In this document: positions 44,743-49,105 of the stretch, in pieces | Layout: each line of letters begins with the position of its first letter | Numbering within the stretch: position 1 is the stretch's first letter | Source of the DNA: Armatimonadetes bacterium 55-13 | GTDB taxonomy: Bacteria > Armatimonadota > Fimbriimonadia > Fimbriimonadales > Fimbriimonadaceae | Assembly: GCA_001898035.1 (NCBI GenBank) | Contig: MKRX01000015.1 | Coordinates: 211,614 to 275,613 of the forward strand | Direction: 5' to 3' | DNA: 64,000 nucleotides | Made by a program: the position numbers and the translations under genes | The notes under the pieces: model-generated | Databases searched by the model: none | Seen by the model: the letters and a program-made list of their open reading frames with translations, nothing else | What the model was told of the DNA's origin: nothing

Positions 44743-44781
44743 AAAGAAAGGCGGGCCAAGCGACATTTACGCTTAGCCCGC
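44743..44781 (-). terminator. Terminator of the PEP-CTERM gene
   Basis: GCGGGC-C-AAGCG (44751-44762) pairs with CGCTT-A-GCCCGC (44770-44781) apart from one mismatch, loop ACATTTA. The plus-strand AAAGAAAG (44743-44750) gives a U-rich end on the minus strand. Confidence 0.75.
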
Positions 44782-44801: not shown

Positions 44802-45434
44802 TTACTTTCGGTTCTTTCGGCGTCGGATGAGCGCCATTGCGCCGATACCGAGGGCAGCCATGCTGGCAGGCTCCGGAACGGGCGCCGGACCGATGATGTC
44901 CTGAACATCTCCGTTGACGCCCTTGTAGACGCAGACGTCGCTGAAGGTGGAAGCTGCGGCCACGTCATCGAGGATCGCTTGCGCGTATCCCTTCACGGTG
45001 GTGTTCAAGCTGATCGTCGAGAAAGTTCCGCTATTGAGATTCAACGTCGAATCGTATCGAGACTCCCAAATGGCGACCTGAAGCGCGATTTGATGATCCA
45101 AATCGCCAGCCAGGGGGGCGTACTTGTTGTAGATATAACCCACGCGAGCGCCCTGCAGATTCCAAAGCCAAATGGCCGAGTAGGTATCCGCTTCGTAAGT
45201 GGTGTTCAGTGCGGCGGCGTGATCCAAGTCAACGCAGTAGCCAACAATGGGATTGCCATCGATAGCGGCATTGATCGGAGCACCCTTCACCGTCTTGGTT
45301 CCACCGTAGTTGATCAAGAACGTGCTGTTCGAGTTGTTGCCCACGTGATCGCCCATATCGACGGTCACGCTGTTCGCAGTGGCGGCCACAGCCGCTCCGG
45401 CGAGGGTTAGCGCAGACACAATTAGATTTCTCAT
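44802..45434 (-). CDS. PEP-CTERM protein with a probable thioester domain
   Basis: A 210-residue exported protein: signal peptide (MRNLIVSALTLAGAAVAATANS), a beta-rich body, and a C-terminal PEP-CTERM signal (PVPEPASMAALGIGAMALIRRRKNRK) for exosortase-type sorting. The body contains GYCVDLD (Cys67) and, about 52 residues on, LQVAIWESRYD (Gln119). This Cys plus QxAIW pair is the hallmark of thioester domains that form an internal Cys-Gln bond and attach covalently to host or surface nucleophiles in Gram-positive adhesins. Covalent binding here is inference. Confidence 0.8.
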   Translation of the reverse strand: MRNLIVSALTLAGAAVAATANSVTVDMGDHVGNNSNSTFLINYGGTKTVKGAPINAAIDGNPIVGYCVDLDHAAALNTTYEADTYSAIWLWNLQGARVGYIYNKYAPLAGDLDHQIALQVAIWESRYDSTLNLNSGTFSTISLNTTVKGYAQAILDDVAAASTFSDVCVYKGVNGDVQDIIGPAPVPEPASMAALGIGAMALIRRRKNRK

Positions 45435-45451: not shown

Positions 45452-45471
45452 TTGGGCCCCGGAGGGCCCAA
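45452..45471. other. Perfect inverted repeat between the two surface genes
   Basis: TTGGGCCC (45452-45459) and GGGCCCAA (45464-45471) with a four-base loop, in the 49-base gap between the SdrD-B protein gene and the PEP-CTERM gene. No T-run follows; it may be an attenuator or mRNA end stabiliser. Confidence 0.6.
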
Positions 45472-45483
45472 GTCGTATTTGCC

Positions 45484-46638
45484 TTACCAGCAACCGCCGC
45501 CGTAGCCACCGCCACAGCCGTTACCGCCGCCGTGGCCCCAGCCCCAGCCGCCGTAGTTGCCGCCGCAGCCTTTCCAGCCCTTATTTCCGCCGCCGCAACC
45601 ATTGCTGCCGCCGCGGTATCCACCGCAACCACTTCCGCCGTTGCCGCCGCAGCCGTTGTTACCGCCACAGCCGTTATTGCCGCCGCAGCCGTTCCAAGTT
45701 CCGCAACCACCGCATCCACAACTGCTCGAAGAGAAGTCGTTAACGCTCTCGATCGTGTTGTTGAGATCTCGAATGGAGAGGTTGGAAGGAAGGTTGCTGT
45801 AGTCGCCGCCCAAAACCTGATTCGCAAGAATCAGAAGCTCTCGAACGGTCAGTCCAGCGAACTTGCCGCTGGGAAGAACTCGATCGCCATAGCCCTGAGT
45901 GGTCAGGCCCGCGTCCGAAACCGCGACGTTCAAAGCCAGCGCCAAGACGTTGCCTGCGAACTCGCTCTCGCAACCGGACGACGGGTCAACTCGGTTCCAA
46001 GTCAAGGACTTGGGATAGTAGCCGTTGCTGGTGGGGAGGAAGCGAAGAATCGCACTTGCACTCGTGAACTTGAGGGTCTTATTTCCTCCAATAACGAGGC
46101 CGTTCGGGAAGAGCTGGTTGAATCGATTCTTGATAAGATCGATCGGCGAAAAACCCCAGCAGCTGTTATAGCCCCACTCGCACTGATTGAAGCCAACCGT
46201 GCAGCAGGAAAGCAAGAAGTCATTCGGATAGTAGGTCTCGCCAGCCTGAACCACCGTCACTCCGATGGTCTTCGTATTGATCTTATAGGCGTTCTGAGAC
46301 GGAAAAGCGTTGATCACGTTCTGGCCATAAGCAGGCACAACCTTAACGTAATACTTTTCGCCTACGACTAGGTCTGGAAAAATGTAAGTGCCGCCGTAGA
46401 CCTCAGGCGTGGTCGTTGCGATGAGCTGGCCATTTTTGTTGTACAGCTCGACGGTGACCTTTGTGAGAATCTCATCGGTATCGACGTCAATCTGGTTGTT
46501 GCAGTTGGCGTCACAGAACACTCGTCCGGCGATGGCAGTGGAGAAGTCCGCGGCCTTCGCGCTCGTTGATAGAATTGCTCCCAGGATTAAACAGGTAAGA
46601 AGCATTACCTGACGGTTCAGTTTATTCAAAGTAATCAT
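45484..46638 (-). CDS. Exported SdrD-B-like protein with Cys/Gly-rich tail
   Basis: A 384-residue exported protein. After the signal peptide (about 1-30) comes a SdrD-B-like calcium-type beta domain (about 31-110: AGRVFCDANCNNQIDVDTDEIL...VTVELYNKNGQ), then an unassigned middle, and from about 305 a tail made of GCGG-type repeats with Gly, Cys, Asn and Trp (NGCGGN units, ending GGGYGGGCW). Cys content in the tail is very high. It lies directly upstream of the PEP-CTERM gene on the same strand. Confidence 0.75.
   Translation of the reverse strand: MITLNKLNRQVMLLTCLILGAILSTSAKAADFSTAIAGRVFCDANCNNQIDVDTDEILTKVTVELYNKNGQLIATTTPEVYGGTYIFPDLVVGEKYYVKVVPAYGQNVINAFPSQNAYKINTKTIGVTVVQAGETYYPNDFLLSCCTVGFNQCEWGYNSCWGFSPIDLIKNRFNQLFPNGLVIGGNKTLKFTSASAILRFLPTSNGYYPKSLTWNRVDPSSGCESEFAGNVLALALNVAVSDAGLTTQGYGDRVLPSGKFAGLTVRELLILANQVLGGDYSNLPSNLSIRDLNNTIESVNDFSSSSCGCGGCGTWNGCGGNNGCGGNNGCGGNGGSGCGGYRGGSNGCGGGNKGWKGCGGNYGGWGWGHGGGNGCGGGYGGGCW
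45644..45697 (-). repeat. Three tandem 18-base units in the Cys/Gly tail
   Basis: Units at 45644-45661, 45662-45679 and 45680-45697 begin CCGCC(G/A)CAGCCGTT on the plus strand and encode Asn-Gly-Cys-Gly-Gly-type repeats. They sit within a larger region of (Gly-Gly-Cys)-rich sequence. Confidence 0.75.
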
Positions 46639-46669
46639 AGGGGACACACCCTAAAGTCGGAATGGTGCA

Positions 46670-47115: not shown

Positions 47116-48720
47116 TTAGGCGATTCGAACGATTCTTCTATCGACAAACGCCTGGCCGAACATGTCCTTCGCCCGAATCTCAACCGCATACGTCCCTCGG
47201 CGGAGGTTGGCGGGTAAGGGCGCCTTCCAGAGATGCTTTGTGTTAGATGGGTTGGGCAACTTGAGGCCCAGCGGCGGCTTCGGGCTGGCTTCCAGCTCTT
47301 TGAGCTTCATGAAGTAGGGATCTTTGCCCTCAAAGTTGGTCATGGGTGTCCAAGCGCCACTCTCCACCTTCATTTCGACCACCGATCGCTCTGAACCCGC
47401 AAACACGTTGACGATCACTTCGGTTTGGGGCACATCTGCAAGCGAGATTTCCTGTGGGAGCCAGATACTCATCTGTTCGCTCTCCGGGCGGCTGGCAGCT
47501 CGGAACTTCACCTTATATCGGTTGCCATCGAATTCAAAAACCGAGTAGCCATTGGGCGCACCGTCGCTCATTGTGGCGTGCGGAATTCCCCGCTCGTCGG
47601 GAGCCCCTTCCCACCAAGAGCCACAGACGGTGACATGGTTAAGGTGATGGTGCGGCGTCTTACCTTTCCAGCCCTCGGCATCGCCAATAAAATAGTGAGC
47701 CTGTACGTGCGTATGCGCTGACACCGAGACGGTAAACGGACGGTCTTCAATGAGACGATAGAGCTCTTCCCGATTATTCACGTCAACCAGCGGTATGTGC
47801 ATTGCCACGAAAATCAGATGATCCTTGGGAACCAGGGCGAGATCGTTCTTGACAAATTCCAGTTGCTTCTTTGTAATTTCGCCGTGATAGCCACGTTTCT
47901 CCGCTCCGTGCCAAACAACGTCGTCTAGGACAATGAAGTGGACCTTTCCATAGTTGAAAGAGTAATAGGTGGGGCCATAGATACGCTGGAAGGTCTCGGT
48001 GGAGAGCGAGTCGTCCGGGGCGTCGTAATTCATGTCGTGATTGCCGACGGTGTTGTACCAAGGCAAGCCGATCGTTCCCACGGTCCGATTGAGGCTCTCG
48101 TAGAGTGAGAGTACATCGAACATCTCATCTCCCAAGCTAAGTCCAAACTTGGCGTCAATTTCCTTTGCTTCCCTTGCCACCTGCTCAACGACGTCGTGAG
48201 CGATGTAGTCAATTTCCGTTTGGTTTCGAGGTTGGGGGTCGCCAAAAAGGATCATCGAAAACTTGTTCGATTCCTTTTGCTGCTCCAATGGAAAATCAAT
48301 CGACTTCGGTAGCGGCCCGGTGGGGGAAACGCCCGGATACTTGTAATTCGGCGATCCGTTGGGTTTGTGGATGTAATAGAACTGGGGCAAATTGTTCGGA
48401 CCAAGAGGAACTCTCCAGCCGGTTGGCTTCACCACGAAGAGAATGGCGTCTTCCTCAACCGGAAGCTTCCAGTAACCGTTACTGTCTGTCTTGACCACCT
48501 CTCGGCCGTTCGATACGCAAATTCCGGCGAGCCCAGGATTTCCATCCTTCTTCCGTCCGCTCTTATCCCGATCATGGAAAACATAGCCTTCGGCATAACG
48601 ATTTCCCTGCTCATCCTTAGGAAGGTCGTTCAGCGAAAAAGAGTTCGCACGTGATAGAGGGGTGAGGGCTAATCCAGCCAGCAAGGCGCCAGAGGTACGC
48701 AAGAATTCACGCCGATTCAT
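47116..48720 (-). CDS. Tat-exported calcineurin-like phosphoesterase
   Basis: A 534-residue protein. Twin-arginine signal: NRREFLRTSGALLAG (2-16). About 35-110 is a beta-sandwich N-terminal part (GYVFHDRDKSGRKKDGNPGLAGICVSN). The phosphoesterase core has FGDPQPR, SLGDEMFD, GNHDMNYD, MHIP and SAHTHVQ, which form the two-metal site. A C-terminal domain of about 140 residues is typical of this subfamily. A hydrolase of phosphate esters on the outside of the membrane; substrate unknown. The start at 48720 restores the Tat motif at the N-terminus. Confidence 0.9.
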   Translation of the reverse strand: MNRREFLRTSGALLAGLALTPLSRANSFSLNDLPKDEQGNRYAEGYVFHDRDKSGRKKDGNPGLAGICVSNGREVVKTDSNGYWKLPVEEDAILFVVKPTGWRVPLGPNNLPQFYYIHKPNGSPNYKYPGVSPTGPLPKSIDFPLEQQKESNKFSMILFGDPQPRNQTEIDYIAHDVVEQVAREAKEIDAKFGLSLGDEMFDVLSLYESLNRTVGTIGLPWYNTVGNHDMNYDAPDDSLSTETFQRIYGPTYYSFNYGKVHFIVLDDVVWHGAEKRGYHGEITKKQLEFVKNDLALVPKDHLIFVAMHIPLVDVNNREELYRLIEDRPFTVSVSAHTHVQAHYFIGDAEGWKGKTPHHHLNHVTVCGSWWEGAPDERGIPHATMSDGAPNGYSVFEFDGNRYKVKFRAASRPESEQMSIWLPQEISLADVPQTEVIVNVFAGSERSVVEMKVESGAWTPMTNFEGKDPYFMKLKELEASPKPPLGLKLPNPSNTKHLWKAPLPANLRRGTYAVEIRAKDMFGQAFVDRRIVRIA

Positions 48721-49105
48721 GGAGGGCGAGGTTACCCCTGGCGCGGGTAAAGAGAATGTTAAATGGCCACCGGAGAGCCCCTCCTTCCAGGACGGCAAGC
48801 AGAGCTACAGGAATGTGCATTTCAACCCACCCGTATCTTGATCGATGTTATTTTCTTAATTGACCTTAATACTTTCTTTTGAGAGTTGCGATCCTTCACG
48901 ACCATTCGAATTTGGTGTACAGACAGTCATCACCAACATGATGCACTATTGCAATCAAGTTCAAAATAGATCAGTCTCGTTACGATCAACGCGATCGGAA
49001 TGAAATTCTTTAGGGTTACGACAAGAGTTGCGTTTTTAAGAACAATTTCGAAATAGCCCTTAACTTAAATACTTCACATGCCAATAGATTCACCAGGGTG
49101 GAGAT
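48721..49105. other. AT-rich intergenic region before the chemotaxis operon
   Basis: About 385 bases with no credible gene. It separates the divergent phosphoesterase and chemotaxis operons and so should carry both promoters. Only one promoter-like element was found (49061-49087). Confidence 0.6.
49061..49087 (+). promoter_or_regulatory. Sigma-28 (FliA)-like promoter of the chemotaxis operon
   Basis: TAAC-N15-GCCAATAG against the flagellar consensus TAAA-N15-GCCGATAA, with the exact spacer and three mismatches. It ends 18 bases before the ATG of the first chemotaxis gene, with GGAG between. Confidence 0.45.

Follow-up and report, generated by a model that had tools for sequence, protein, structure and literature searches.

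We predict that the 64,000-nucleotide stretch of DNA analysed here (the window) encodes a minimal thioester domain (TED) protein that is processed by an exosortase, resides on the cell surface or in the extracellular matrix, and carries an internal thioester between Cys67 and Gln178 through which it would covalently cross-link the matrix or neighbouring cells, a reading to which, taken as a whole, we assign a probability of about 0.6. The protein is the product of a 210-aa open reading frame with an ATG start on the minus strand (44802..45434), whose translation consists of a signal peptide, a domain of ~164 residues and a PEP-CTERM tail. The signal peptide (approximately residues 1-20, MRNLIVSALTLAGAAVAATA; 45375..45434, minus strand) was assigned by eye rather than with a cleavage-site tool, the domain covers residues 21-184 (44883..45374, minus strand) and the sorting tail residues 185-207 (44814..44882, minus strand; PVPEPASMAALGIGAMALIRRRKNRK). 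The original prediction for this locus had proposed a thioester-domain signature in an exported PEP-CTERM protein, and translation bears out its coordinates, its motifs (GYCVDLD and LQVAIWESRY) and its residue numbers (Cys67 and Gln119, the latter followed by Trp123), to which we add the strand that it had omitted.

The sorting tail and its genomic context are those of an exosortase substrate. The PEP-CTERM ending named in the original prediction is recognised above cut-off by both PF07589 (28.1 bits, cut-off 20.7) and TIGR02595 (25.2, cut-off 16), and the protein has the signal peptide (again by eye), the motif, the transmembrane stretch and the basic end of such substrates. Matches to the NCBIfam PEP-CTERM families were mainly confined to the tail and under cut-offs, and for those members of the protein family that were tested, NCBIfam gave no family matching the protein body. 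The same genome encodes one exosortase (PF09721, 168.7 bits against a cut-off of 25.7, E 2.7e-49), a single diverged TED paralogue and about 28 further PEP-CTERM-like ends, and an exosortase was present in 21 of 21 genomes searched. Judging by its Armatimonadota relatives and this exosortase system, the host is presumably a diderm.

The domain between signal peptide and tail is almost certainly a divergent TED, in homology as well as in fold. The only non-tail Pfam match of the protein is PF08341 (TED), at 18.0 bits below a cut-off of 22 that reflects the threshold of the model rather than any structural trait of TEDs; the profile match anticipated in the original prediction was therefore obtained as to family and fell short as to score. 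Pfam TED also matches 25 of 33 same-family sequences (the window protein included), with any other family matching at most one, and 17 of 47 sequences at E 0.01, with no match to other families, in a set comprising the window protein and 46 mostly distant relatives. An AlphaFold2 model built from a 47-row alignment (pLDDT 92.4, pTM 0.89) contains six strands, three helices and two further strands. In this model, as in a second one made for an alphaproteobacterial relative from Rhodovulum (24% identical in the alignment), a barrel is followed by a three-helix bundle and the last two strands return to the barrel, as in the TED fold. With the first model, the top 17 Foldseek matches were all TEDs (E from 1.2e-4), and VIA-align returned 12 TED entries at Z 9.9-15.4 ahead of a next fold at Z 3.7; the best match was BaTIE (6fwv; Z 15.4, rmsd 2.5 over 141 residues). 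The second model likewise matched TEDs only (Z 9.4-12.5, next fold 2.2). When the sequences of solved structures were searched, neither the single protein nor either of the two profiles retrieved a TED chain, so that the link to TEDs needed a structural model, and a search of a viral structure library gave no match (best E 0.5).

The fold part of the structural check suggested with the original prediction is thus affirmed by two models that match TEDs alone, and the homology to an unrelated beta-sandwich that the prediction had named as its possible undoing did not appear. A search for the three TED motifs together (the Cys motif, QxxPhiW and a C-terminal Phi-Q-zeta-Phi-Phi) matched, among the 203 open segments that are 100 aa or longer in the window, a single one, namely the TED protein itself, against 0.003 expected per window after residue shuffling and 0 hits in 100,000 shuffles of the window protein; the expression was composed once the motifs were already known, so the independent evidence lies in conservation and fold. 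That an unrelated beta-sandwich or cysteine protein resembles a TED by chance, as short motifs by themselves may arise randomly, is a next to negligible prospect given this motif expectation and the wide gap between TEDs and the next fold in two confident models, and the fold comparison refutes it unless both models are wrong.

Relatives of the protein are widespread. Of the family's 85 genomes, 47 gave matches in a protein search, a few of which lay mainly over the sorting tail. Across the phylum, the domain profile had matches in 61 of 201 genomes and 32 of 121 genera. A profile that has the window protein as one of its own rows scores this protein at E 7.3e-41. When bacterial and archaeal genomes were scanned, at least 47 loci were recovered, in records that bear the labels Armatimonadota, Acidobacteria, Planctomycetes and Proteobacteria, among others, and because the spread beyond the home phylum rests on this one scan with one QxAxW pattern, it is a lower bound. 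Exosortase-type tails occur on relatives from all four of these named groups, and a sorting tail (VPEP-, VPLP- or similar) ends nearly all of the 82 sequences in our joint alignment. The plasmid records searched contained no relative. TED genes often stand in tandem pairs (loci L015, L018, L025 and L027), and one protein from Bacterium UASB270 (L085:3578-4897) has two TED-like repeats in a single chain and no evident sorting tail. The TED protein of a record labelled Methanoregulaceae archaeon (L043) reads the same as that of a genome from the window's own bacterial family (G056, locus L020), so this contig has probably been misbinned under its archaeal label.

None of the 82 sequences in the joint alignment departs from Cys67, Gln119, Ala121, Trp123 or Gln178. 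A few proteins entered this alignment twice, from two collections, so that the independent sequences are somewhat fewer. Within the scan set, the invariance of Gln119 and Trp123 is partly imposed by the QxAxW scan pattern, which did not extend to Cys67 or Gln178. All three TED motifs can be placed on these residues. The Cys motif [YFL]C-Phi-zeta is present as YCVD around Cys67 (codon 45234..45236, minus strand; model strand 41-47), and the bonding-Gln motif Phi-Q-zeta-Phi-Phi is present on the last strand as VQDII around Gln178 (codon 44901..44903, minus strand), the Cys and the Gln each being invariant in all 82 sequences. The TQxxPhiW helix motif, found in most but not all TEDs, appears as LQVAIW, with the Gln and Trp kept and Thr replaced by Leu (Gln119-Trp123, codons 45066..45080, minus strand).

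These assignments bear directly on which glutamine would bond with Cys67. The bonding Gln residues of CpTIE, SfbI and PnTIE are Gln267, Gln261 and Gln247, respectively (PMC4450167). From the end points of the structural alignments, and assuming that no gap in the C-terminal strand separates the last invariant Gln from the end of the alignment, that Gln aligns to Gln267 of CpTIE (5a0g) with both models and to Gln261 of SfbI and Gln247 of PnTIE with the second model; in the SfbI alignment of the first model it lies one residue off Gln261. Gln119 belongs to the third TED motif, whose Gln and Trp are dispensable for the bond in Cpa (PMC4450167) and whose side chains hydrogen-bond with the Cys backbone in TEDs (PMC4450167, PMC6194298). 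With Gln119 in the third motif and Gln178 matching the bonding position, the thioester pair is most likely Cys67-Gln178, and we think it probable that these two residues do form the bond. The original prediction had instead paired Cys67 with Gln119. Gln119 is indeed invariant as well, but since its invariance is partly a product of the scan, its motif is not essential for the Cpa bond and it is Gln178 that matches the bonding position, we regard that pairing as very improbable and reject it; moreover, as a Gln of this kind contacts the Cys backbone in real TEDs, the proximity of Cys67 and Gln119 would be a misleading test of it. What stands of the original prediction is the thioester domain in a PEP-CTERM protein, upheld by the fold, the motifs, the invariant residues and the conservation across the family, and what falls is its choice of residues; the covalent adhesin or matrix crosslinker that it had foreseen is a hypothetical role.

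The domain might also keep the TED fold and have lost the bond, with Cys67 and Gln178 serving structural roles in a non-covalent function. The Pfam TED score under cut-off is in keeping with such a loss, and the covalent chemistry is in our case a prediction. Against this, Cys67 and Gln178 are identical throughout the 82 sequences, most of which are at about 20-30% identity, and the same two positions are the only fully conserved residues in known TEDs (PMC4450167), which makes loss of the bond quite unlikely.

Known TEDs fall into class I, defined by an alpha0 helix, and class II, defined by a beta-sandwich insertion (PMC6194298). In our model, strand 58-66 runs directly into helix 67-88, so that the alpha0 helix located in class I between strand D and helix 1 is absent, and helix 125-140 is followed by strand 148-152, so that the class II insertion, which is ~75 residues long and separates helix 3 from strand P, is absent as well. 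On this model, the domain is a minimal TED core without either class-defining indel. A survey of fibrillar adhesins described two clusters that also lack the beta-sandwich (PMC9210967), and the missing class II insertion is consequently not new in itself.

How such a protein would work can be outlined from these features. The single-domain TED protein would be exported through its signal peptide, and processing of the PEP-CTERM tail by the genome's exosortase would deliver it to the cell surface or the exopolysaccharide matrix. As the domain folds, Cys67, which lies in the barrel, and Gln178, which lies in the C-terminal strand, would form the internal thioester and release ammonia, the Cys backbone being held by Gln119 and Trp123 of the central helix. 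The thioester could then react with an amine of a partner, either a lysine or an amino sugar, to give covalent cross-links inside the matrix or with neighbouring cells, a use more likely than contact with a distant host receptor. Exosortase substrates have been associated with bacteria that possess an outer membrane and genes for exopolysaccharide (PMC1569441), and a PEP-CTERM protein retains exopolysaccharide in flocs (PMC9850573). As the window protein has no stalk, and exosortase proteins are tied to extracellular matrix and flocs, cross-linking is the most likely use, and we lean slightly towards matrix or cell-cell cross-linking as the main role. The protein could alternatively be a true TED that acts as an adhesin and becomes covalently linked to an amine presented by an external surface or by another organism, in the way that a fibrinogen lysine is targeted by SfbI (PMC4450167). 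Its fold and bond residues are those of known adhesins and paralogue number varies between genomes, as would suit this role; however, the window protein is without a stalk or other adhesive domain, many carriers look environmental by their record titles, and we consider an adhesin unlikely.

For the cross-linking that we favour, a candidate covalent partner in this lineage is encoded next door. Directly upstream and on the same strand, 49 bases from the TED gene, lies a gene (45484..46647, minus strand) for a secreted protein with an SdrD_B-like domain (PF17210, 29.4 bits against a cut-off of 29.7) and a Gly/Cys-rich tail. This gene order is common to the window and two further genomes of the family (G001 and G048), and the upstream protein was unmatched in the family's other 82 genomes. 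It is found, then, in 3 of 85 genomes, each time adjoining the TED gene, and with a pair so restricted, the SdrD_B-like protein cannot be the general covalent target, an idea that we rejected. We saw no sorting signal in the window's protein or its relatives (L010:400-1449 and L011:100-1431), whose tails diverge sharply, being Gly/Cys/Asn-rich in the window and G048 and Asp/Arg/Lys/His/Cys-rich in G001. The two genes are probably co-transcribed. A terminator-like hairpin of 12 pairs follows the TED gene (44751..44781, minus strand), and hairpins are also visible by eye 3' of the TED gene in G048 and G001. The 49-base gap itself contains a perfect hairpin (TTGGGCCCTCCGGGGCCCAA; 45452..45471, minus strand) whose sequence G001 and G048 do not share. 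Elsewhere in the window, a Tat-type calcineurin-like phosphoesterase (47116-48798, minus strand; MetallophosN/MetallophosC) shows a weak SdrD_B-like match near its N-terminus.

In a 2015 survey, all TEDs came from Gram-positives (PMC4450167), and our search of the open-access literature uncovered no paper that connects TEDs with PEP-CTERM, diderms or Gram-negatives. Some of these proteins may already be named in database annotation. Annotation likely misses them, as the Pfam score is under cut-off for the window protein and many of its relatives and NCBIfam gave no family for the body in the members tested. We tentatively propose, at somewhat less than even odds, that they represent a third, minimal TED class, a widespread diderm exosortase substrate that acts as a covalent matrix cross-linker, with the TED and the SdrD_B-like domain split into neighbouring genes in this lineage. 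If true, the occurrence of exosortase-sorted TEDs in several phyla of diderms would mean that covalent attachment of the self-generated kind also exists in the second major type of bacterial envelope, and PEP-CTERM proteins, whose role in matrix and flocs is largely unexplained at the molecular level, would gain a concrete and testable chemistry.

Compared with known systems, the window protein combines features of several. With the class I TEDs of Clostridium perfringens and S. pyogenes (CpTIE 5a0g, SfbI 5a0l, Cpa 2xi9/4c0z) it shares the barrel and three-helix fold, the Cys motif, the QxxPhiW helix and the C-terminal Phi-Q-zeta-Phi-Phi Gln, at about 10-16% identity, but it differs from them in having no alpha0, LPXTG anchor or stalk and in carrying an exosortase-type tail in diderm hosts. 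Class II TEDs (Bacillus anthracis BaTIE 6fwv, SaTIE 6fx6, EfmTIE86 6fwy and pLS20 TIE) provide the best structural match and likewise have no alpha0, whereas the window domain is without their beta-sandwich insertion (~8 residues separate helix 3 from the strand that follows it) and their isopeptide stalk. PEP-CTERM substrates such as PepA of floc formers resemble it in signal peptide, tail and the presence of an exosortase in the genome; what sets it apart is that its body is a thioester domain. With complement C3 and C4 it would share the chemistry of a Cys-Gln thioester. Characterised TEDs mostly sit on stalks, and Gram-positive TIE proteins have an LPXTG anchor and isopeptide or ester stalk domains, whereas the window TED is placed directly on its PEP-CTERM tail with neither of these nor any other domain. 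Finally, Gram-positive TIE proteins hold the TED and CnaB-type domains in one chain, and the neighbouring TED and SdrD_B-like genes of the window may by analogy be a split-gene parallel to that arrangement.
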